Shown here in pieces: positions 2,679 to 20,241 of a stretch of 20,610 bases of DNA. The translations under genes and the position numbers were made by a program. The DNA is from a virus. The notes under the pieces were generated by a model that was not told the origin of the DNA, did no database searches, and saw only the letters and a program-made list of their open reading frames with translations. How positions within the stretch are numbered: position 1 is the first letter of the stretch; each line of letters opens with the position of its first letter. The stretch spans positions 1-20,610 of the IMG/VR virus record IMGVR_UViG_3300046328_000571. One strand, 5' to 3'.

Positions 2679-3608
2679 ATGAGTACAAAATTAACGCTGA
2701 TTCAAAAACTAGATCAGTCGGCACCTGCAGCAATAGTAGGGTTGCCAGAAGTAGCAGACCGCTTCAAAGGTATTTACAAAGTAATGAACGGCGGCGATGA
2801 TGAAGTCGCTGGCATAAAGTACGAAGCTGAAAAATTCCACTTTATGAAGTTAGTAACAGATACGGCCGCTTTACAGAACTGCACCAAATTAAGCCTGTAT
2901 GGATGCTTTATTGATATGGCTGTAAATGGCCTGTCATTCGATCCTGCTATGAAGCATGCCTACATAGTACCGTTCTCAGTAAATGCTGGCACTAAAGACA
3001 ACCCAAAGTGGGAGCAACGGGCTTCTTTAATGATTGATGGCCGTGGCGAATTGCTGATCAGAGTAAGACAAGGGCAAATAAAATACGCTGATAACCCGGT
3101 ACTGGTTTATGAAGGCGATGAGTTTATGCATGGTACTACAAAAGGATCTGTATTCTTAGAGCATAAGGCTGTATTTCCACGTAAATCAGATAATATCATT
3201 GCCTGTTATCTACGAATAGAAAGGCCAGATGGATCCGTTGATTATAAGGTAATGGGTATTGACGAAGTGTTGAAATTAAAAGAATTTGGAAAGAACGGCA
3301 ATAGCCTGGCATGGACAAAAGGCTTACCGGGCATGGTGCAAACCAAATGTATTAAACACGCTTTCAGAAGCTATCCAAAAGTAAAGCTTGGTAATTTTAC
3401 CAAACTACAGACAGAAAGCATTGAACCCACTCCAGAGGTTACTATTGATTACGGCTTAAATGACGCTGCTGAGGAGCTTCCGCAAGCTACCGGAACATTT
3501 ACACCGGTCATGATTGTAGAGCCAGTAAAGCAGCCAGTACAAGATGATGAGTTTGTTTCTAAAGCTCAGCCATCCGGAAGTAAAAGCTTTGATGATGATG
3601 ACTTTTAA
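2679..3608 (+). CDS. recT: RecT-family single-strand annealing protein
   Basis: This 309-residue protein matches RecT-family annealing proteins, which coat single-stranded DNA and anneal it to a complementary strand during phage recombination. Supporting segments are LSLYGCFIDMAVNGLSFDPA followed by KHAYIVPF (~70-98), SLMIDGRGELLIRVRQGQIK (~115-134), and LAWTKGLPGMVQTKCIKHAF with RSYPKV (~210-236), all in RecT order. The C-terminal ~60 residues are disordered and end in an acidic run (SFDDDDF), resembling tails that contact SSB-type partners. Its exonuclease partner is most likely the PD-(D/E)XK protein two genes downstream. It starts 19 bases after the HNH-like gene. Confidence 0.85.
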   Translation: MSTKLTLIQKLDQSAPAAIVGLPEVADRFKGIYKVMNGGDDEVAGIKYEAEKFHFMKLVTDTAALQNCTKLSLYGCFIDMAVNGLSFDPAMKHAYIVPFSVNAGTKDNPKWEQRASLMIDGRGELLIRVRQGQIKYADNPVLVYEGDEFMHGTTKGSVFLEHKAVFPRKSDNIIACYLRIERPDGSVDYKVMGIDEVLKLKEFGKNGNSLAWTKGLPGMVQTKCIKHAFRSYPKVKLGNFTKLQTESIEPTPEVTIDYGLNDAAEELPQATGTFTPVMIVEPVKQPVQDDEFVSKAQPSGSKSFDDDDF

Positions 3609-3639
3609 TTTTTAACCTTCTAATAGTTCAACAAAAAAA

Positions 3640-5007
3640 ATGGAAAATAACAATCAAGTAGCAGTAATCGAAAATAGTATCGAGCTGCTAAAAAAAGCAC
3701 CGCAAATTTTACAGGCTAACCAGATCCGCAAAAGCAAAGCCATTGAAGTAGGCAACAATATTCTTGTGCAGATTGATAGCGAAGGCATGAATACTGCTAT
3801 TGATGAAAGAGCAATGAAGTATCTGGCCAATGTAAACGCTGCCAGCAAGGATATGAAAGAACAACGGGCAGGAGTTACTCAAATAATGGACCAGCTCAAA
3901 AAAATGTACACCGAGGTAGAGAATGAATTGGATATTAAAAAGCCCGGAACAATACCTGCACAAATTCAAGAGCACCGGAATAAGTATGCTACTCAATTAG
4001 CACAAGAAGCAGCCGAAAAGAAAAGGCAAGCTGAATTAGTAGCTGCAAAGCAAAAGGCATACATTGAAATTGTCGCAAGTATAGAATCTCAATTTGCACA
4101 GTTTTACGGTAATCTTTTACTGGCTAAAAAAACAGCAATGCACAACAGCTTTAATCAAATATCACTTGCTGATTTTGGCGAAAAATCAATGAAGTTAAAA
4201 GCCTTCAACCCTACCTTAAACCCTGCTTTACTTAGCGAATTTAAACCTACTGGATATTATTTACAGTATCATTCACAAGGTGAAATTGCAGAAATGATAG
4301 TAAGTATCTCTAGTGAAAAAATACCTGAGTATAGCAATAACTATGTTGCAGAATTGGAAATTGTAAAAGATGAACTAATTGAAAGATTACCATCTAAATT
4401 AAATGAACTGAATGAGCAAAAAAGACTGGCAGATGAAAGAGCGGCCGAAGCAGAAAGGCAGCGTATTGAAAAAGAAAAATCAGATGCAGCCATTGCAGCC
4501 GCCAATGCTGAGCAGCGAAAAATTTTAGAAGCAAAGGCAGAAGCTGACAGGCTTGAAAATGAACGCAAAAACGCTGAGCTATTAGAACGGCAGCAAAAAG
4601 CAGCAGCGGAACAGGCAGACAGAGAAGCAGCAACAGCAGCAAGGATCAAAGAAGAAGCCGAAGAGAACAAAAGGAAAGCTGATCTTGATATTGAAGTGAA
4701 AAAGCAGGGTGAACAAACGATGGTAATGTTTGAGCAGGAAGCAGCTACTGCAGAATTGAATGATGGACCATCTACCAGGCAAGGTGTTGAAATTACGGTA
4801 TTGCACCCGGTAGGCTATACTCAAATATTTGCGCTTTGGTTTGATGCTGAGGGAAAGAACCTGCCTCTTGATAAACTTGGTAACACAAAACTTGATCAGA
4901 TGAAAGCATGGTGTGAAAAGAAATGCTTGAAGGACGGCACTAAAATAGAAAGTAAGTTTTTAGAGTACACCGATAATTTTAAAGCTGTAAATAAGAAAGC
5001 AAAGTGA
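3640..5007 (+). CDS. Coiled-coil phage protein between RecT and exonuclease
   Basis: This 455-residue protein has an N-terminal helical domain (~1-130), a middle domain (~145-245) and a long Ala/Glu/Lys/Arg-rich coiled coil (~245-365). A small C-terminal domain (~375-450) contains LHPVGYTQIFALWFDAEGKN. Similar coiled-coil proteins of the DUF1351 kind sit between RecT-like and exonuclease genes in many phages; I infer the same role by position and shape, not by a diagnostic motif. Its last four bases overlap the start of the exonuclease gene, so the two are probably co-translated. It may act as a scaffold for the recombination complex, but the biochemical function is unknown. Confidence 0.6.
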   Translation: MENNNQVAVIENSIELLKKAPQILQANQIRKSKAIEVGNNILVQIDSEGMNTAIDERAMKYLANVNAASKDMKEQRAGVTQIMDQLKKMYTEVENELDIKKPGTIPAQIQEHRNKYATQLAQEAAEKKRQAELVAAKQKAYIEIVASIESQFAQFYGNLLLAKKTAMHNSFNQISLADFGEKSMKLKAFNPTLNPALLSEFKPTGYYLQYHSQGEIAEMIVSISSEKIPEYSNNYVAELEIVKDELIERLPSKLNELNEQKRLADERAAEAERQRIEKEKSDAAIAAANAEQRKILEAKAEADRLENERKNAELLERQQKAAAEQADREAATAARIKEEAEENKRKADLDIEVKKQGEQTMVMFEQEAATAELNDGPSTRQGVEITVLHPVGYTQIFALWFDAEGKNLPLDKLGNTKLDQMKAWCEKKCLKDGTKIESKFLEYTDNFKAVNKKAK

Positions 5008-8110: not shown

Positions 8111-8435
8111 TTCATTCCGCAAGGCTTTTTACCATCTTAAAATGGCAAACGAATATTTTAGAGATGCACAAAGGGAACACCCTAATAAAGTAAGCGGTGC
8201 AGTTGGTAAGAAGTATGGAGACCGCACCGAATGGATGATGAAAGATTTTAAAAGCAATCCATTATTACCAGGCTTTGCAATTGAGCAATGGAGCAAGGAA
8301 ATGGACAGCGATATTATGTTTCATGAATCAATCAGCAGCAAAGCCTTGAACCTTACAGAAAAGCAAAAAGAGATTTTGGAAACTATCATAGACCAGGTAA
8401 TTGCTGGAGAAGAAATTACAGTTAAAATACAATAG
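8097..8435 (+). CDS. Hypothetical phage protein
   Basis: This 112-residue mostly helical protein starts inside the DUF4406 gene. It contains FRKAFYHLKMANEYFRDAQR (~7-26), KKYGDRTEWMMKDFKSNP (~39-56) and a C-terminal helix LTEKQKEILETIIDQVIAGE (~86-105). No transmembrane segment or catalytic motif is visible. It is the last gene before the promoter and leader at 8471-8577, so it probably ends the preceding transcription unit. Confidence 0.6.
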   Translation: MQKDNSFRKAFYHLKMANEYFRDAQREHPNKVSGAVGKKYGDRTEWMMKDFKSNPLLPGFAIEQWSKEMDSDIMFHESISSKALNLTEKQKEILETIIDQVIAGEEITVKIQ

Positions 8436-8470
8436 TCAAAAAGAATAAAATTTATACAAAAAGATTTGCA

Positions 8471-8491
8471 GAGTTGCTATATTTGCAACTC
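8471..8491 (+). promoter_or_regulatory. Promoter -7 box inside a perfect palindrome
   Basis: GAGTTGC (8471-8477) and GCAACTC (8485-8491) form a perfect 7-bp inverted repeat. Its seven-base centre is TATATTT, so TATATTTG (8478-8485) matches the Bacteroidota -7 consensus TAnnTTTG. An upstream TTTA at 8451-8454 is a possible weak -33 element with 23-base spacing. A regulator bound to this palindrome would cover the promoter. The next gene is the intein-bearing helicase. Confidence 0.55.
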
Positions 8492-8577
8492 AATCACTTA
8501 ACGAAGTAGTGTCCGATAAGTGATTTATTCACTCCATTAAAGGGGGCTTTCAGACACTACCTGTTAGCCCCTTTTTT
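8492..8577 (+). ncRNA. Structured leader or small RNA with pseudoknot and T tract
   Basis: GTAGTGTC (8506-8513) is perfectly complementary to GACACTAC (8553-8560). GGGGGCT (8542-8548) can pair with AGCCCC (8566-8571), which is followed by six T. The two helices interleave and would form an H-type pseudoknot. A further small hairpin (AGTGA with TCACT around 8518-8533) lies in the first loop. The G-rich/C-rich helix plus T tract also looks like a rho-independent terminator placed six bases before the helicase ATG. Either this is an attenuated leader or a short ~85-nt RNA from the 8478 promoter. I do not recognise a known RNA family. Confidence 0.5.
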
Positions 8578-8582
8578 AGTTT

Positions 8583-11381
8583 ATGATTGATATAACAGAA
8601 ACGCCGATTGGCTATCAGGTTGAATTTGAATATAAGCCTTGGATAGTGGATGCAGTAAAAAGAATACCCGGCGCACATTTTAAACAGTTAGACGGTAAGA
8701 AATTCTGGCACGTTCCTTTAAGTTCCAGTAATGCTTTATTAAATTGGGCTGCTAAATTAGGTAAGACACCAAAGGCACAAACTGCTGTAGAGATTGGAGA
8801 AATAGATCCGCTTCCAGAGCTTACAATTGATATTCCACTAAAGATGAAAATGTTTCCGTACCAAGAAAGCGGCGTGGCTTACAATCTTGAAAAAAAGACG
8901 GCAATATTAGGGGATCAGCCTGGCCTGGGTAAAACGATTCAAGCCATTGCAACTGCTGAGGCTTCCGGGTGTAAATGTATTTTAATTATTTGCCCTGCTA
9001 CATTAAAAGAAAACTGGAAAAGAGAGATCGAGGTAAAGTGGACAAATAGCAAAGCATTGATCTTAAGTGATAGCTGTAAAAATACATGGCCAACATTTTA
9101 TAAGGTAGGTATTGTAAAGTATTTCATCACGAATTATGAGAGCTTAAAAAAGTACTTTGTTGAGGGGGTAAATATACCAACAGGCAAAGACGGCAAACCA
9201 GTTCCATTGCGTTTAAATCACATCAAATTTAAAGATACCATTGATCTTTTTGATTGTGTAATTATAGACGAAATCCACAAATGTTTCCCTTATGAAACTA
9301 AAGTATCAACAGAAATAGGGCTTTTAGAAATTGGGCTTATAGTAGAACAAAAGCTGGATATAAAAGTTGCAAGCTTTGACCACAAAAGCAATTCAATAGT
9401 ATTTAAGAAAATAATAAATCACTGGACAAATGAGCTTAAAGAAAGAAGTATTTACAAAATCAGGCACGAAAACGGACTGCTCTACGCAACTGGAAATCAT
9501 AAAATCTATACCGCCAGCGGCGAGTACAAAGAAGTACATAAAATCAAAAGTGGAGAGATGTTGTATATGTTGCAAGAAAACCTTTCTGACAAAAAAGGCA
9601 GGAAAGGCAACTGCAAAATACTGCTCCAGGAGTTGCTTTGCAAAGACAATAAATGCAGATCCGGAAATAAGGAAGAAAATGGACTTGAACAAAAGAAAGC
9701 CGGAAATAGAAAAAATATGTGCTTATTGCTCAGTAAGTTTTTCTATAAAATCCAACGGCAAGGAATCTGCAAAAATTCGGTTTTGCAGTCAAAGCTGCTC
9801 GGCAAAATGGAGAGTAAGAACACCGGAGGCTATTGCTGCAAATCAAACGCAGGAGAAAAGGGAAAAAGCAAGAGTGAATGCACTTCGTATAATGAACGAA
9901 GGTTCAAGAAGGCAAAAAACTTCACAAAGAATGATTGCAAAAAATCCTATGCACAATCAGGAAACAATAGAAAAGCTAAAAAAGGTAATGAGTGGTCGCA
10001 CATTTCTGGCAAGGGGTGGCAATGGCCAATTAACAAAGCAGCAAATAATGCTTTGGGAGGCAATAGGGCTACCGGAATCAGCAATGGAGTTTGCTATACC
10101 AACAAGGATCGTGAAGAGTTTATTCAAAAGCCTACCAAATTCATACAAGGTAGATGTTGCAATAGAAAATATAAAGCTTGCAATAGAAGTGGACGGGAGT
10201 ACCCACAGATTAAAAAAATGGAAATTTCTGGACGCAAGAAAAACAGAAGTGTTAAATGCGTTAGGGTGGAAAGTATTGAGGTTTACAAACCAACAAGTAA
10301 CGGAGAATTTGGATTCAGTTCTATTGTCAATAAAAGAGTTTATGATTTAGAGGTAGCTGATACACATAATTACTTTGCAGATAACATTTTAGTATCAAAC
10401 TGTAAGGATGGGAAAACAATGCAAAGTAAGCTTACAATGGGCATTGCAAAGGGTAAGGAGTACATTTTAGGATTGACAGGAACGCCTGTTGTAAACAAGC
10501 CTATTGACTTAATACCGCAACTGCACATCATTGGCCGCCTTCATAATTTCGGTGGGTACAAAGGCTTTGTAGATAGATACTGTCAAGGTAGAAATCAAGC
10601 AAGTAATTTAAAAGAATTGAATTACTTGTTGCATAAAAACTGTTTTTATCGCAGGGAAAAGAAAGATGTATTAAAAGATTTGCCCGATAAAATGAGGGAG
10701 ATTATCAAGTGTACCATCAGCAACCAGCGAGAGTATGACAAAGCCGAAAATAATCTGGTAAACTATCTCAAAGAAAATTTAGGTAAGACAGATCAGGAGA
10801 TTAGCGTAAGCCTACGTGGTGAGGTTATGGTAATGATTGGTATCTTAAAAAAGATAGCAGCAAAAGGTAAAATAGCAGATGTAATTGAACACATTGAGGA
10901 AGTAGTAGAGGCAGGGGAAAAGATTATTGTATTTGCATGGCACAAGGAAGTAATAGACGAACTGAAAAAAGTAATCACTGGCGCCGTTACCGTTGTAGGT
11001 AACGATAGTATGGAAAGCAGACAAAGATCTGTTGACAGCTTCCAGAATGATCCTAAAGTACAAGTTATCCTATGTAATATTAAATCCGGCGGTGTAGGTA
11101 TCACGTTGACAGCTTCCAGCCGTGTAGCCTTTATTGAATTACCATGGCATCCTGCAGACTGTGAGCAATGCGAAGATAGAGCACATAGGATTGGTCAAAA
11201 AGATAGCGTACAGGTGTCTTACTTCTTAGGTGATGGAACTATTGATGAAAAGATTTACGAGATCATCGAGAATAAAAGAAACATTGTAAACCAGGTTACA
11301 GGGGCAAGTGATGATGTGGAAACGGTAGAAAAGAACATGGTCGATCAGTTGATTGGTATTTTTTCAAAAGCTAAAAATTAA
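8583..11381 (+). CDS. HARP/SNF2-type DEAH helicase precursor with intein
   Basis: This is a 932-residue precursor; removing residues 234-606 leaves a 559-residue superfamily 2 ATPase of the SNF2/SMARCAL1 kind. Order: a HARP-like domain (~1-62, with HFKQLDGKKFWHVPL), Walker A GDQPGLGKT (~110-118), motif Ia (LIICPAT), motif II DEIH at 229-232, then the intein. After it come motif III (LGLTGTPVVNKP), motif IV (IIVFAWHKEVIDEL), motif V (SGGVGITLTASSRV) and motif VI (ADCEQCEDRAHRIGQKD). Such enzymes translocate on duplex DNA and anneal or remodel replication forks. The gene follows its own promoter and leader and precedes a DUF4373 replication gene. The mature protein should be complete only after splicing, since the interruption falls next to the ATP-hydrolysis motif. 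Confidence 0.9.
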   Translation: MIDITETPIGYQVEFEYKPWIVDAVKRIPGAHFKQLDGKKFWHVPLSSSNALLNWAAKLGKTPKAQTAVEIGEIDPLPELTIDIPLKMKMFPYQESGVAYNLEKKTAILGDQPGLGKTIQAIATAEASGCKCILIICPATLKENWKREIEVKWTNSKALILSDSCKNTWPTFYKVGIVKYFITNYESLKKYFVEGVNIPTGKDGKPVPLRLNHIKFKDTIDLFDCVIIDEIHKCFPYETKVSTEIGLLEIGLIVEQKLDIKVASFDHKSNSIVFKKIINHWTNELKERSIYKIRHENGLLYATGNHKIYTASGEYKEVHKIKSGEMLYMLQENLSDKKGRKGNCKILLQELLCKDNKCRSGNKEENGLEQKKAGNRKNMCLLLSKFFYKIQRQGICKNSVLQSKLLGKMESKNTGGYCCKSNAGEKGKSKSECTSYNERRFKKAKNFTKNDCKKSYAQSGNNRKAKKGNEWSHISGKGWQWPINKAANNALGGNRATGISNGVCYTNKDREEFIQKPTKFIQGRCCNRKYKACNRSGREYPQIKKMEISGRKKNRSVKCVRVESIEVYKPTSNGEFGFSSIVNKRVYDLEVADTHNYFADNILVSNCKDGKTMQSKLTMGIAKGKEYILGLTGTPVVNKPIDLIPQLHIIGRLHNFGGYKGFVDRYCQGRNQASNLKELNYLLHKNCFYRREKKDVLKDLPDKMREIIKCTISNQREYDKAENNLVNYLKENLGKTDQEISVSLRGEVMVMIGILKKIAAKGKIADVIEHIEEVVEAGEKIIVFAWHKEVIDELKKVITGAVTVVGNDSMESRQRSVDSFQNDPKVQVILCNIKSGGVGITLTASSRVAFIELPWHPADCEQCEDRAHRIGQKDSVQVSYFLGDGTIDEKIYEIIENKRNIVNQVTGASDDVETVEKNMVDQLIGIFSKAKN
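9282..10400 (+). mobile_element. Intein in the DEAH box of the helicase
   Basis: The 373-residue insert begins with Cys234 and ends with Asn606 before the +1 residue Cys607. Block A is CFPYETKVSTEIGLLEIG, block B is GLLYATGNHKIYTASGEY with the T-x-x-H signature, block F is VYDLEVADTHNYFA, and block G is NILVSN|C. The spliced join would read DEIHK-CKDGKT. The residue before the final Asn is Ser instead of the usual His, which is known in some active inteins but may slow Asn cyclisation. In the helicase frame the middle (~residues 330-560) is low-complexity Lys/Asn/Cys/Gly sequence with no recognisable nuclease domain. The nuclease is in another frame. Confidence 0.9.
9430..10350 (+). CDS. Homing endonuclease (EDxHD/DUF559-type) nested out of frame in the intein
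   Basis: The +1 frame encodes up to 306 residues. Two treble-clef zinc motifs come first (Cys44-x2-Cys47 with Cys65-x3-Cys69, and Cys97-x2-Cys100 with Cys119-x3-Cys123). Then come a basic helical region, the linker FLARGGNGQLTKQQ (~192-205), MEFAIPTR (~219-226), and a Vsr/DUF559-like nuclease core: YKVDVA (Asp242), LAIEVDGSTH (Glu253, Asp255, His259), Asp268 and LGWKVLRF (278-285). This is the arrangement of EDxHD phage homing endonucleases. The stop TAG (10348-10350) lies inside the intein's VYDLE codons. Start is uncertain: ATG 9430, or GTG 9550 directly before the first zinc finger; residues 1-40 look like a shadow of intein block B. Intron- and intein-linked nucleases of this family are established; the fully nested alternate frame is what is unusual here. 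Confidence 0.85.
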   Translation: MSLKKEVFTKSGTKTDCSTQLEIIKSIPPAASTKKYIKSKVERCCICCKKTFLTKKAGKATAKYCSRSCFAKTINADPEIRKKMDLNKRKPEIEKICAYCSVSFSIKSNGKESAKIRFCSQSCSAKWRVRTPEAIAANQTQEKREKARVNALRIMNEGSRRQKTSQRMIAKNPMHNQETIEKLKKVMSGRTFLARGGNGQLTKQQIMLWEAIGLPESAMEFAIPTRIVKSLFKSLPNSYKVDVAIENIKLAIEVDGSTHRLKKWKFLDARKTEVLNALGWKVLRFTNQQVTENLDSVLLSIKEFMI

Positions 11382-11384
11382 GGC

Positions 11385-12227
11385 ATGAAGTATATCCTAC
11401 ATGATACAAATGCCATTGATGATGAGAAAATGACTGAGCTTTTTTTAGAGTACGGATATGAGGGTATAGGGTTGTTTTGGTGTGTGCTTGAAAAGATTGG
11501 AAAGCAAGAAAAACCGATCAAAACCAAGGTGCTAAAATCACAGTTGAAAGTTGGTAAAAAGCTTGACAAATGCTGGAACTTTATGGAAAGTATCGGCATA
11601 CTTTCATCAAACAATGGTGAAACTTTCAATGAACGAATATTATCGTACAGCGAAACCTACAAGATAAAAAAAGAAAAAAACAAAGAAAAAATTTCACAAT
11701 GGCGTGAAAATCAAACAGTTGAAAAAAATGTAACCGGTTACGAACCTTCTTGTAACCCTCCTAAAGTAAAGGAAAGTAAAGTAAAGGAAAGTAAAGTAAA
11801 TAATCCTGTTGTTGATGCTATCGCACCAACGGGAAAATTAGAAATTTTACCTACTGTTTTTTGGAAAGAATTAACAGACGTTTGGTTTAAATTTTATAAA
11901 AAATATTACCTCACTGATCCAAGCTTTAGAGCAGCCGAAGGCAAGCAATTAAAATCAATTTTAACACGGCTCGAAAAAAAGACAAAAGAGAAAGGTTTTG
12001 AATGGACAGAAAAACACTCAGCAGATTGCCTTGCTCAATTTCTGGAACGTGCCAGATCAGATGAATGGCTAAGCAGAAATTTTAGCCTTGCAAACCTCGA
12101 TTCAAAATTTGATATTATCATAACGCAAAAAAATGGACAAGCCTCAAACGCAAAACAACAAACTGGAAAAGTTACAGGTGAACAACTCAACCAGGCATTT
12201 ACTAATTTCTATACACAGCAACAATAA
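11385..12227 (+). CDS. DUF4373 (Lin1244/Lin1753-like) replication protein
   Basis: The N-terminal ~100 residues match DUF4373, a winged-helix-like domain found at the start of many phage and plasmid replication proteins. Matching segments are FLEYGYEGIGLFWCVLEKIG (~22-41) and LDKCWNFMESIGILSSNNGE (~60-79). A Lys/Glu linker follows with a repeated KVKES unit (~127-138). The C-terminal ~110 residues include VWFKFYKKYYLTDPSFRAAE and a tail rich in Gln. It starts three bases after the helicase, so the two are co-transcribed. Probable role: origin recognition or helicase loading, inferred from family and position. Confidence 0.75.
   Translation: MKYILHDTNAIDDEKMTELFLEYGYEGIGLFWCVLEKIGKQEKPIKTKVLKSQLKVGKKLDKCWNFMESIGILSSNNGETFNERILSYSETYKIKKEKNKEKISQWRENQTVEKNVTGYEPSCNPPKVKESKVKESKVNNPVVDAIAPTGKLEILPTVFWKELTDVWFKFYKKYYLTDPSFRAAEGKQLKSILTRLEKKTKEKGFEWTEKHSADCLAQFLERARSDEWLSRNFSLANLDSKFDIIITQKNGQASNAKQQTGKVTGEQLNQAFTNFYTQQQ
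11762..11800 (+). repeat. Short tandem repeat in the DUF4373 linker
   Basis: The unit AAAGTAAAGGAAAGT is repeated with small overlap, encoding KVKES-KVKES-KV. It keeps the frame (15-base period) and sits in a flexible linker, so copy-number change would alter linker length without disrupting the protein. Confidence 0.7.
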
Positions 12228-13400: not shown

Positions 13401-13522
13401 AACGCCTACGGCTTGGCGAAGTGGGGGAATTATACCCACAAAAGCCGATTAGAATTACTAATGTTTAATAACAGATAAAAGATGATAGAAGCAGTCAGCC
13501 CCCATTTTGCCAAACCGATGTT
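13401..13522 (+). repeat. attC-like site 2
   Basis: The left arm is AAC-gccta-CGGCTTGGCGAAGTGGGGG from 13401. The right arm from 13522, reverse complemented, is AAC-at-CGGTTTGGCAAAATGGGGG. The centre shares GATTAGAATTAC (13447-13458) with site 6. The right arm lies inside the 5' end of the methyltransferase reading frame. Confidence 0.8.
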
Positions 13523-14885
13523 ACCTGCTGGTGCGGTTGGTTTACGAGTACTTTCCTTATTCGATGGAATGAGCTGTGGGCAACAAGCACTTGAAAGAAT
13601 TGGTGTAAATGTTTTGGAATATTACGCAAGTGAAATTGATAAACACGCTATTGCAGTAACGATGCACAATTACCCAAATACAAAGCAATTAGGAAGCGTT
13701 ATTGATGTGGATGGATATACACTACCAAAGATTGATTTATTGATTGGTGGAAGCCCTTGCCAAAGTTTTTCATTTGCTGGCAAACGAAAAGGAATGAGTA
13801 CAAAATGCGAAACAGAAATATTGACTTTAGAACACTATTTGGAATTGAAAAATGAAGGTTACGAATTTGAAGGGCAAAGCTATTTATTTTGGGAGTATAT
13901 GAGATTGCTTAACGAAGTCAAACCAAAATACTTTTTACTTGAAAATGTACTGATGGGCGAAAAATGGGAAAAGATATTGAGTAAAGCAATTGGAGTAAAA
14001 CCAATTGAAATAAACTCTGCTTTAGTATCTGCTCAAAATCGAAGAAGATTATACTGGACAAATATTGGAATGCAACCAATGGGATTATTTGGAGATTTAG
14101 AAAACATAATACCGCAACCAAAAGACAAAGGTATTTTGTTAAAAGATATACTTGAAAGTGAAGTTGATGACAAATATTATTTGAGCCAACAACGAATTGA
14201 AACAATGCTGAAAAGTGAAAGAAGTGTGCCTTATGTTGATGAAGAAACAAAGAAATTCAATTGCTTATTGGCTGTATATAATAAAATACCTACTGATGGG
14301 CAATATGTGGTACACAACACAATGCCACGAAGTAGCACAACTGGCAAAGGCGGTAGCGGACCACTAAGCCGAAATGATGGTAAAACCTATTGCTTAGATA
14401 CTGGAAGCACAAATGCAATTGAATTAGTTGGATGTATAAAGTTTGGCAGAACAGATGAGGCAAAGGAAATGAGAAAAGAAAGTATGAAAAATGGCAAAGA
14501 TTATACACCATTTCAAGCCAAAGAAATAACTGGTATTGATTACGATAAAATGAATACGCTTACTACTGCAATAAATAAAGATAACCTGGTAATGCAATTA
14601 AATCCATCAACTGAAAGTAATGGATGCCAACCTTACCAACAAAATAGAATTTATGATACAGATGGAATTAGCCCCGCCTTAATGGCTCAAATGAGTTGTG
14701 GCACTCACGCCATAAAACACGAAAGAAAAATAAGAAGATTAACACCTTTAGAGTGTGAAAGACTGCAAACCGTTAAATATGGATATACAAGTGTAGCTTC
14801 TGATAGTCAGCGATACAGAATGTTAGGTAATGGATGGACTGTTGATGTTATTGCTCACATATTATCTTACGGAGAATGGTCGTAG
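13518..14885 (+). CDS. Cassette 3: DNA (cytosine-5) methyltransferase
   Basis: This protein transfers a methyl group from S-adenosylmethionine to C5 of cytosine in DNA. All landmarks are present: motif I LSLFDGMSCG, motif IV GGSPCQSFSFAG with the catalytic Cys, motif VI YFLLENV, motif VIII SAQNRRRLYWTN, and the C-terminal RRLTPLECERLQ and MLGNGWTVDV. Start 13518 gives 455 residues (MLPAGAVGLRVLSLFDG). An upstream in-frame ATG at 13482 adds 12 residues encoded wholly by the attC-like right arm. Either way the start codon lies in the upstream site, and ATG 13518 ends with the G where integron recombination would occur. No restriction enzyme is nearby, so protection of phage DNA is the likely role. 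Confidence 0.9.
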   Translation: MLPAGAVGLRVLSLFDGMSCGQQALERIGVNVLEYYASEIDKHAIAVTMHNYPNTKQLGSVIDVDGYTLPKIDLLIGGSPCQSFSFAGKRKGMSTKCETEILTLEHYLELKNEGYEFEGQSYLFWEYMRLLNEVKPKYFLLENVLMGEKWEKILSKAIGVKPIEINSALVSAQNRRRLYWTNIGMQPMGLFGDLENIIPQPKDKGILLKDILESEVDDKYYLSQQRIETMLKSERSVPYVDEETKKFNCLLAVYNKIPTDGQYVVHNTMPRSSTTGKGGSGPLSRNDGKTYCLDTGSTNAIELVGCIKFGRTDEAKEMRKESMKNGKDYTPFQAKEITGIDYDKMNTLTTAINKDNLVMQLNPSTESNGCQPYQQNRIYDTDGISPALMAQMSCGTHAIKHERKIRRLTPLECERLQTVKYGYTSVASDSQRYRMLGNGWTVDVIAHILSYGEWS

Positions 14886-15123: not shown

Positions 15124-15378
15124 ATGACAAAGACAATTTCACAATTACGCAAAGAAGCAAACAAAGCACCTAAGTACGTTTTAAAAATGGACGGACTTGA
15201 TTTATTTGTTGCCGACAAACAGGCTTTAACTGGCTGCAATATCACTGAAGATGTAAAGAAGGCTAAAATGTTTTCAGTTGGTTTTGATAATGAAGAAATG
15301 AAAGCTGGAGTATGGACGGCAGTTGCACAGTTAATGACTAATAACAAAGATGTAAAGTTTGAAGTAATGTATTTATGA
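15124..15378 (+). CDS. Cassette 4: small hypothetical protein
   Basis: I chose ATG 15124 (product MTKTISQLRKEANKAPKYVL, 84 residues in all), preceded by an A-rich leader and 20 bases after a TATATTTG box (15097-15104) that could be a -7 element, although no -33 TTTG is well placed. An earlier ATG at 15088 would include the promoter-like sequence. The body has alternating strands (FVADKQALTGCNITEDVKKA, then KMFSVGF) and ends DVKFEVMYL. It overlaps the methylase-like gene by four bases. No family is recognised. Confidence 0.6.
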   Translation: MTKTISQLRKEANKAPKYVLKMDGLDLFVADKQALTGCNITEDVKKAKMFSVGFDNEEMKAGVWTAVAQLMTNNKDVKFEVMYL

Positions 15379-16046
15379 GAATAATAGTAGGATGCGAAGA
15401 AAGCGGCGAAGTACGTGATGCCTTTATAAAATTAGGGCATGATGCAATTAGCTGCGATTTAAAGCCATCAAGGAACGGCGGGCCACATTATCAGGGCAGC
15501 ATCTTTGATATAGACTACTCTGATTTTGATTTGGCTATAATTCATCCACCATGCACTTACTTATGCGTTACTGCAAATAAATGGCTTAAAGACCAACCTG
15601 CCAGAAAAAGCGGGGCATTAGTTGGAGCAGAAAGGCGGCAAGCCGTAAAAGAGGCACATGATTTTTTTATAGCCTGCTGGAAATTACCAGTTAAAAGAAT
15701 GTGTATTGAAAACCCTGTAGGCGTAATGAGTTCATTATGGCGAAAGCCGGATCAAATCATACAACCGTGGCAATTTGGGCATAATGAACCAAAAAAAACC
15801 TGCCTTTGGCTGCGTGGCTTGCCACTATTAAAACACACTAAAATAATGGAACCGGAATATCATATAACAAAATCCGGGAAACGATTGCCTAAGTGGTATG
15901 CTTATGCTGATAAAAGCAAAGGGCAGGCACACAGGGCAGAAATTAGAAGCAAAACATTCACAGGCATTGCGGAAGCAATGGCAAACCAATGGACAAATGA
16001 AAAGAAGATTATTTCACCTGTACTTGAAATCAACTTTGGAGCATAA
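15375..16046 (+). CDS. Cassette 4: phage DNA methylase-like protein (C5-MTase superfamily)
   Basis: This 223-residue protein has a Rossmann-type opening (MRIIVGCEESGEVRDAFIKL, the place of motif I), an acidic loop (HDAISCDLKP) and a motif IV-like IIHPPCTYLCVTANKW (~55-70) where the P-P-C resembles the catalytic Pro-Cys. MCIENPVGVMSS (~113-124) resembles motif VI E-N. It lacks the QxRxR and C-terminal motifs of complete C5 methyltransferases and is half their length. Short proteins of this type occur in many phages as putative cytosine methylases or related base-modifying enzymes. Methyl transfer is inferred, not certain. It is translationally coupled to the preceding 84-residue protein. Confidence 0.7.
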   Translation: MRIIVGCEESGEVRDAFIKLGHDAISCDLKPSRNGGPHYQGSIFDIDYSDFDLAIIHPPCTYLCVTANKWLKDQPARKSGALVGAERRQAVKEAHDFFIACWKLPVKRMCIENPVGVMSSLWRKPDQIIQPWQFGHNEPKKTCLWLRGLPLLKHTKIMEPEYHITKSGKRLPKWYAYADKSKGQAHRAEIRSKTFTGIAEAMANQWTNEKKIISPVLEINFGA

Positions 16047-19800: not shown

Positions 19801-20241
19801 ATGAGAACACCCTTCACTTTAGCTGATCTTAAAAAAACGCCTTGTGCGGCAATTAATCAGCACCTCTTTGTTGCGCCGGTTAAGAAAAAAGAAAAGAGCC
19901 TTGGCAAGCAAAAAACATGGATTCAGTTTAGATTACTCCAGTTTGCAGAAAGCAACAAACTGGAGCTTAAAGAAGAACATAGATTTCACGATGAGCGCAA
20001 GTGGCGTTTCGATTGGGCAATACCTGAGCTGCATATAGCATTTGAATACGAAGGTATCTTTTCAGCTAAAAGCCGCCATACTACAGCCAAAGGTTTTACA
20101 GGTGATGCAGAAAAATATAACGCTGCTCAATCTGCAGGATGGATAGTTTACAGATACACTGCAATAAACTACTTAGATTTGGTAACTGATCTAAATAATT
20201 TGCCCGGTATTATTCAAAAAGAAAAAGATTTATTCAAATAG
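19801..20241 (+). CDS. PD-(D/E)XK-fold endonuclease-like protein
   Basis: This 146-residue protein starts one base after the recombinase stop. Residues ~60-75 read EEHRFHDERKWRFDWAIPEL, followed by HIAFEYEGIFSAKSRHTTAK (~76-95) and a closing AGWIVYRYTAINY (~118-130). The pattern E...R-x-D...E-x-E-G...H...K...G-W-x-x-x-R resembles compact phage nucleases of the VRR-NUC/DUF559 kind, with Asp and Glu as metal ligands. It could be a Holliday-junction resolvase or a packaging-related nuclease. It is co-transcribed with the recombinase. Confidence 0.65.
   Translation: MRTPFTLADLKKTPCAAINQHLFVAPVKKKEKSLGKQKTWIQFRLLQFAESNKLELKEEHRFHDERKWRFDWAIPELHIAFEYEGIFSAKSRHTTAKGFTGDAEKYNAAQSAGWIVYRYTAINYLDLVTDLNNLPGIIQKEKDLFK

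Follow-up and report, generated by a model that had tools for sequence, protein, structure and literature searches.

Genes at the locus

The DNA analysed here, referred to throughout as the window, comes from IMG/VR, where it is a virus record of 20.6 kb (IMGVR_UViG_3300046328_000571, positions 1–20,610). Its open reading frame (ORF) at positions 8583–11381 encodes an intein-bearing helicase of the SNF2/SF2 type (932 amino acids, aa); within the intein, one base out of phase (the +1 frame), lies a gene for a nuclease of the DUF559 family. A preliminary description of this DNA had claimed that the helicase frame runs through the intein without a stop, and we confirm that it is open from end to end. 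Taken together, the evidence below makes it very probable that motif II of a phage helicase here harbours a mobile intein, whose homing endonuclease gene is overprinted one base out of phase and translated independently. The coordinates of all features are collected in Table 1.

The intein begins with the Cys codon at 9282, directly after the DEIHK stretch (motif II/Walker B) that ends the N-extein, and closes with the Asn codon ending at 10400, before Cys-Lys-Asp. PF14890, TIGR01445 and TIGR01443 all match it above cut-off, and the residues expected of an intein are conserved: the N-terminal Cys (C1), the TxxH of block B (T70/H73), blocks F/G (Y354), and the terminal Asn (N373) followed by Cys. 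Insertion into the host protein is precise, as inteinless relatives (L298–L301 and L338; L numbers are the labels of the fetched loci) align gap-free at the junction. In the AlphaFold model of the intein frame, the two HINT halves are confident (residues ~1–100 and 323–373), the C-terminal one holding the VESIEV strand, VYDLEV, HNY and LVSN; residues 102–321 mostly fall below a pLDDT of 50, and this linker of ~220 residues is predicted to be disordered. The intein would be expected to splice, giving an intact helicase.

In the +1 frame, the open stretch extends from 9418 to 10350, and the ORF at 9430–10350 within it matches DUF559 (Pfam, E 5e-15 to 7e-15); the nuclease stop, TAG at 10348–10350, falls within the VYDLEV motif of the intein. 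The EDxHD/DUF559 core is conserved: PF04480 is found in 39 of 39 aligned members, with E, D, ExDGxxH and D invariant. The corresponding codons in the window (first base) are E10087, D10153, E10186, D10192, H10204 and D10231. An AlphaFold model of the nuclease has a mean pLDDT of 93.6 and a pTM of 0.56, and the nearest structures, both by profile search and by Foldseek, are 3r3p (I-Bth0305I, an EDxHD homing endonuclease) and 3hrl. A NUMOD3-like DNA-binding motif, suspected from the string RMxxxNPM, was rejected (no Pfam match).

Table 1. Positions of the helicase, intein and nuclease features in the window.
Feature	Positions	Strand	Evidence
N-extein of SNF2/SF2-type helicase	8583–9281	+	SNF2-rel_dom E 2e-21; phrog_62 DNA helicase
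Intein, 373 aa, Cys1 to Asn373, contiguous frame 0 without stop	9282–10400	+	PF14890, TIGR01445, TIGR01443; empty site in relatives
HINT domain, N-terminal half, residues 1–97	9282–9572	+	AlphaFold pLDDT 84–96 per 10-residue block; alignment
Possible N-terminal extension of nuclease if ATG 9430 is used (less likely)	9430–9549	+	Frame open from 9418; inside conserved N-intein domain
Nested nuclease gene, +1 frame, 266 aa from probable start GTG 9550	9550–10350	+	GTG conserved in L254, L255, L257; AlphaFold mean pLDDT 93.6; DUF559 E 5e-15
Two Cys-rich (zinc-ribbon-like) elements of nuclease	9559–9801	+	Conserved CxxC pairs in nuclease alignment; zf-FCS and similar Pfam matches in some relatives
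Intein-frame linker, residues 102–321 (-1-frame shadow of nuclease gene)	9585–10244	+	pLDDT < 50 nearly throughout; dN/dS 1.35 in relatives
DUF559/EDxHD catalytic domain	10087–10347	+	Invariant alignment columns; 3hrl E 1.5e-12, 3r3p E 0.007; Foldseek to both
HINT domain, C-terminal half, residues 323–373	10248–10400	+	Confident strands in AlphaFold model; C-intein profile match
Dual-coded strand: GWKVLRFTN (nuclease, from 10264)/VESIEVYKP (intein, from 10266)	10264–10292	+	Overlay in 139/165 distinct relatives
C-extein of helicase	10401–11381	+	Helicase_C E 8e-14; first residue Cys+1 (CKDGKT)

The same layout in viruses and bacteria

A tblastn search of isolate phages returned 42 records; among the 40 listed, all matches lie under a host-protein gene, mostly annotated as a helicase. 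Isolate-phage matches to this nuclease class came mainly from phages of Vibrio, Pseudomonas and Corynebacterium. Eight isolate records were opened, and in all eight the nuclease is in the +1 frame relative to the helicase coding sequence, the helicase frame is open, the third frame contains 15–24 stops, and no separate nuclease gene is annotated under the helicase. Profile searches of viral and bacterial contigs added ~110 further loci with both intein halves, all +1.

A second search used the N-intein motif alone, to avoid selecting on the nuclease. Its seeds came from nested members, such that the nested share among its hits is not a census, while phase was not selected for. This search gave 126 loci, of which 113 have a +1 nuclease (109 of them with both halves of the intein, and four cut short where the contig ends); the rest comprise one nuclease in +2 and a number of split, canonical or mini-inteins. 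Pooling yielded 183 distinct contiguous inteins: 176 with a nuclease or nuclease remnant in +1, one in +2, none in frame and four without such a nuclease, with the two fractured loci described below (L081 and L108) included in the tally but set aside. The catalytic motif is present in 164 of 166 full-size members, and in 164 of those 164 it is preceded by at least 120 open codons. These relatives share descent and are not independent sequences. Homologues with the nuclease in frame with the intein had been named as a finding that would overturn the preliminary description; none was found among 177 distinct inteins with a nuclease match. The proposed nesting in the +1 frame of an uninterrupted intein is supported.

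Nearly all of these inteins are inserted at, or a few residues from, DE|CH in the Walker B/motif II region of P-loop ATPases. Among the host proteins are SF2/SNF2 helicases and clamp-loader AAA+ ATPases (DNA_pol3_delta2, DNAX lid). Bacterial contigs are titled as Chloroflexi, Acidobacteria, Proteobacteria, Verrucomicrobia and others; some may be prophages. With ~175 distinct inteins sharing it, across viruses and many phyla of bacteria, the two-layer layout is a stable design rather than a sequencing accident.

The same data bear on the concern that an assembly or sequencing error, in the form of compensating frameshifts, disguises an in-frame nuclease as a nested one. Such frameshifts were sought in independent assemblies and none was seen. 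The window DNA recurs in two other metagenome contigs (L001 at 100% and L002 at 99.99%, over 7.6–8.4 kb); a sequencing frameshift is excluded because these carry the same DNA, and isolate phages from other sequencing groups show the same phase. We found no point in favour of an error, the homologues already refute it, and its probability is next to nil.

Two sets of loci met during these searches differ from the above. Locus L250 has a terminase large-subunit-like intein (3001–3930) holding an HNH_3 nuclease (3282–3875, E 4e-18) that is coded in the +2 frame and has a separate ATG; this is a second nuclease family that is overprinted, in the other phase, and the single example found. Loci L284, L292 and L281 have split inteins in helicase- or terminase-like hosts, with other nucleases or none recognised (that of L292 looks HNH-type).

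Selection on the two frames

If the nuclease protein is held fixed and its synonymous codons are shuffled, a mean of 14.7 stops appears in the intein frame of the window, or 25.8 with helicase codon usage. The observed number is 0, a value reached in 0/1000 shuffles, and a chance ORF is ruled out because the shuffles never arrive at it. The third forward frame, previously said not to be open for long, contains 31 stops over the same stretch. Across the family, 95 distinct nucleases show 0 intein-frame stops in ~20,100 codons, against 877–1,150 expected. In free-standing DUF559 homologues, the equivalent frame contains 548 stops over 8,577 codons. The cleanest control is the fractured pair, L081 and L108, with 15 and 23 stops versus 18.8 and 26.9 expected: stop avoidance is lost once the frame needs no read-through. 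The shuffle statistics and these unconstrained split relatives bear out the earlier suggestion that the intein frame is kept open around the nuclease gene.

A comparison of constraint in both frames across homologues had also been proposed. Comparison of eight independent pairs gave 156, 159 and 390 differences at the first, second and third nuclease codon positions. For the middle part of the gene, dN/dS is 0.185 in the nuclease frame and 1.35 in the intein frame; for the last 34 codons, which overlap the C-intein, the values are 0.27 and 0.72. The nuclease frame is under protein-level selection. From the contrast between the two regions it follows that the only demand on the intein-frame linker, otherwise an unselected shadow, is freedom from stops, and that the 3' overlap is constrained in both frames.

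Part of this overlap is a strand that is coded twice. The nuclease stretch GWKVLRFTN overlies the intein stretch V(E/D)S(V/I)E(I/V)(L/Y)(E/K) in 139 of 165 distinct members, and AlphaFold predicts both GWKVLRF and VESIEV to be strands. Three relatives (L176, L204 and L273) have lost most of the nuclease and retained the dual-coded stub, which is to be expected if the bases of the stub are still needed for splicing. The strand overlay probably fixes the phase at +1, although a single origin of the layout would account for the constant phase too.

Could the +1 frame nevertheless be a decayed nuclease fossil or a chance ORF, with the intein alone being functional? Remnant nucleases do exist in some relatives. 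However, the low nuclease-frame dN/dS (~0.19), the near-universal catalytic motif and open frame among full-size members (164/166) and the high-confidence predicted fold leave very little room for this explanation, and we consider it extremely improbable.

Translation of the nuclease

Most members have an ATG at a distance of 220–320 nt from the intein start, immediately ahead of the first Cys pair. Of 138 such early in-frame ATGs, 40 have a Shine-Dalgarno site (at least 5 nt), compared with 34 of 649 later in-frame ATGs (P 3e-14) and 2 of 117 intein-frame ATGs in the zone of the early nuclease ATGs. Going by these signals, the nuclease usually has a start of its own, often with a Shine-Dalgarno site. 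The best start in the window is GTG 9550, a few codons before the first Cys pair and conserved in three relatives (Table 1), and it is here that the window nuclease most likely begins. Independent initiation is well supported for the family and probable for the window. Given the family-wide enrichment of Shine-Dalgarno sites at the nuclease starts, it is plausible that separate translation lets the nuclease level be set apart from splicing.

Alternatively, programmed ribosomal frameshifting from the helicase/N-intein frame could produce the nuclease as a fusion, with no internal start. The members inspected around the end of the N-intein have an open +1 frame there, such that a single +1 slip would reach the nuclease. 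Yet several relatives (L060 at 310 nt into the intein, L111 at 220 nt) have a +1 frame whose first open codon is itself an ATG with a strong Shine-Dalgarno site, and the Shine-Dalgarno enrichment is specific to the nuclease frame; no shared slippery heptamer was noticed, though no systematic search was made. We consider frameshifting to be very unlikely.

Comparison with known systems

Canonical inteins with an in-frame LAGLIDADG endonuclease share with the window a HINT domain and an endonuclease coded between its halves. They differ in that their splicing domain and nuclease form one polypeptide and their other frames are full of stops, whereas the window nuclease is a separate protein in +1; no LAGLIDADG match was found in frame 0 of the window intein. 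Canonical-looking inteins occur among the fetched loci (L249, L290, L297 and L314), that of L297 at the same DE|CH site. L314, a relative of the window helicase, has two of them, one located at Walker A and the other ahead of HRIGQ; its motif II has no intein.

In fractured genes, reportedly described by Dassa et al. in 2009, the intein is said to be split, with a free-standing gene for an endonuclease separating its halves. This is the organisation of L081 and L108, whose nuclease belongs to the family of the nested clade. In the window and nearly all relatives, by contrast, the intein frame is uninterrupted and the host protein is one chain.

I-Bth0305I shares the catalytic domain, both by profile (E 0.007) and by fold (Foldseek probability 1.00). 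It differs in its context, as the PDB lists it (3r3p) as a mobile intron protein, while no Rfam match was obtained in window positions 8400–11500 at E up to 1. An intron was rejected on this basis.

In the phage ShiLan, an out-of-frame HNH endonuclease lies in a phage methylase without a splicing element (PMC11855218). Both there and here, an endonuclease ORF is hidden in an alternate frame of an insertion and the host frame is kept open; the ShiLan insertion has no detectable intein or intron, whereas the window has a conserved splicing domain around a nuclease of a different family. On overlapping frames in actinobacteriophages, PMC11855218 cites a 2025 preprint by Gosselin, Arsenault and Gogarten on actinobacteriophage inteins of non-canonical architecture (10.1101/2025.01.02.630785), and Gorbalenya 1998 ('Non-canonical inteins'). 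As far as these citations go, both works may describe overlapping-frame intein endonucleases. The overlap with the actinophage survey is probably small, because the isolate-phage matches to this nuclease class come mainly from phages of the three genera named above. What appears to set the layout apart from its nearest kinds is that an EDxHD nuclease is overprinted on a splicing intein whose frame is uninterrupted.

A probable homing cycle

Several kinds of locus fit a homing cycle. Firstly, the inteinless helicases have the exact empty site (L298, the nearest at 77% identity, reads DEVHR|TKDG; the others are L299–L301 and L338). Secondly, in 12 distinct inteins much or most of the nuclease has been deleted and the intein frame is intact. 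Thirdly, L114 (3824–5892) has a free-standing nuclease gene just upstream of, and overlapping the start of, an inteinless helicase gene; motif II of this helicase is DESHH instead of DECHH, possibly a resistant allele. Finally, the fractured loci (L081, 3328–5298; L108, 3196–5490) consist of three overlapping ORFs in the order helicase N-half plus N-intein, nuclease, C-intein plus helicase C-half, with the same nuclease family. In a tree built by FastTree only, and with many open forks, the nested clade encloses both L114 and the fractured pair. This placement is suggestive of an evolutionary direction from nested to fractured.

The nuclease might have another role than homing, such as excluding rival phages or cutting host DNA. 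DUF559 is a diverse nuclease superfamily, and some members are free-standing (L087 and L095). Against this stand the strict association with inteins at a single kind of site, the presence/absence alleles, the loss of the nuclease by deletion as in a homing cycle, and the resemblance to the homing enzyme I-Bth0305I in both profile and fold. Another role is therefore unlikely, though less so than the alternatives considered above.

We infer the following sequence of events. Frame 0 would be translated into a precursor comprising helicase, HINT N-half, disordered linker, HINT C-half and helicase, which would splice to intact helicase. The +1 frame would give, from its own start (GTG 9550 in the window), a free zinc-ribbon and EDxHD/DUF559 nuclease. 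The presumed target of the nuclease is motif II in helicase alleles without the intein; cleavage there, followed by repair, would copy the intein in. The intein frame over the nuclease would be selected only for freedom from stops, except at the 3' end, where the shared strand probably explains the constant +1 phase.

Some observations weigh against a splicing, homing intein with an independently translated nuclease: (i) the penultimate residue of the intein is Ser, where His is usual, (ii) the window nuclease start lacks a Shine-Dalgarno site, though 22 of the 23 genes of this phage are alike, (iii) GTG 9550 may be conserved because the SGE codons of the intein need it, and (iv) given shared descent, the constancy of the phase may trace to one event.

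A broader proposition, to which we give slightly better than even chances, is that these loci represent a widespread, undescribed class of "overprinted inteins," in which the nuclease is out of phase, separately translated and locked at +1 by the GWKVLRF/VESIEV overlay. Such a class would link contiguous inteins to fractured split-intein genes (in which stop avoidance is lost) and to mini-inteins (in-frame deletions that retain the dual-coded stub), tying nuclease–intein arrangements into one evolutionary series. It would also add to in-frame fusion and gene splitting a third means of joining a splicing element to a homing nuclease. Questions would then open on whether splicing and homing can be tuned apart, on how gene overlap slows the loss of a selfish nuclease, and on the origin of split inteins. 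Annotation hides such enzymes, as in the eight isolate phage records, and inteins tolerating ~200 disordered residues could serve as starting points for protein-splicing tools.

Other genes of the window

Plasmid carriage was rejected, with no match among 72,556 plasmid records. The window encodes a tyrosine recombinase/phage integrase (18918–19799, E 5e-31), which suggests a temperate phage. The leaders of the window genes are A-rich and Shine-Dalgarno sites are nearly absent, as in Bacteroidota phages (the one remaining gene of the 23 has 4 nt); a Bacteroidota host would be in keeping with this. A C-5 cytosine methylase gene lies at 13482–14885 (E 8e-40). Two further ORFs have no Pfam match: the one at 15375–16046 has a methyltransferase-like look, and a small one directly 3' of the integrase gene (19801–20241) looks like a short nuclease.

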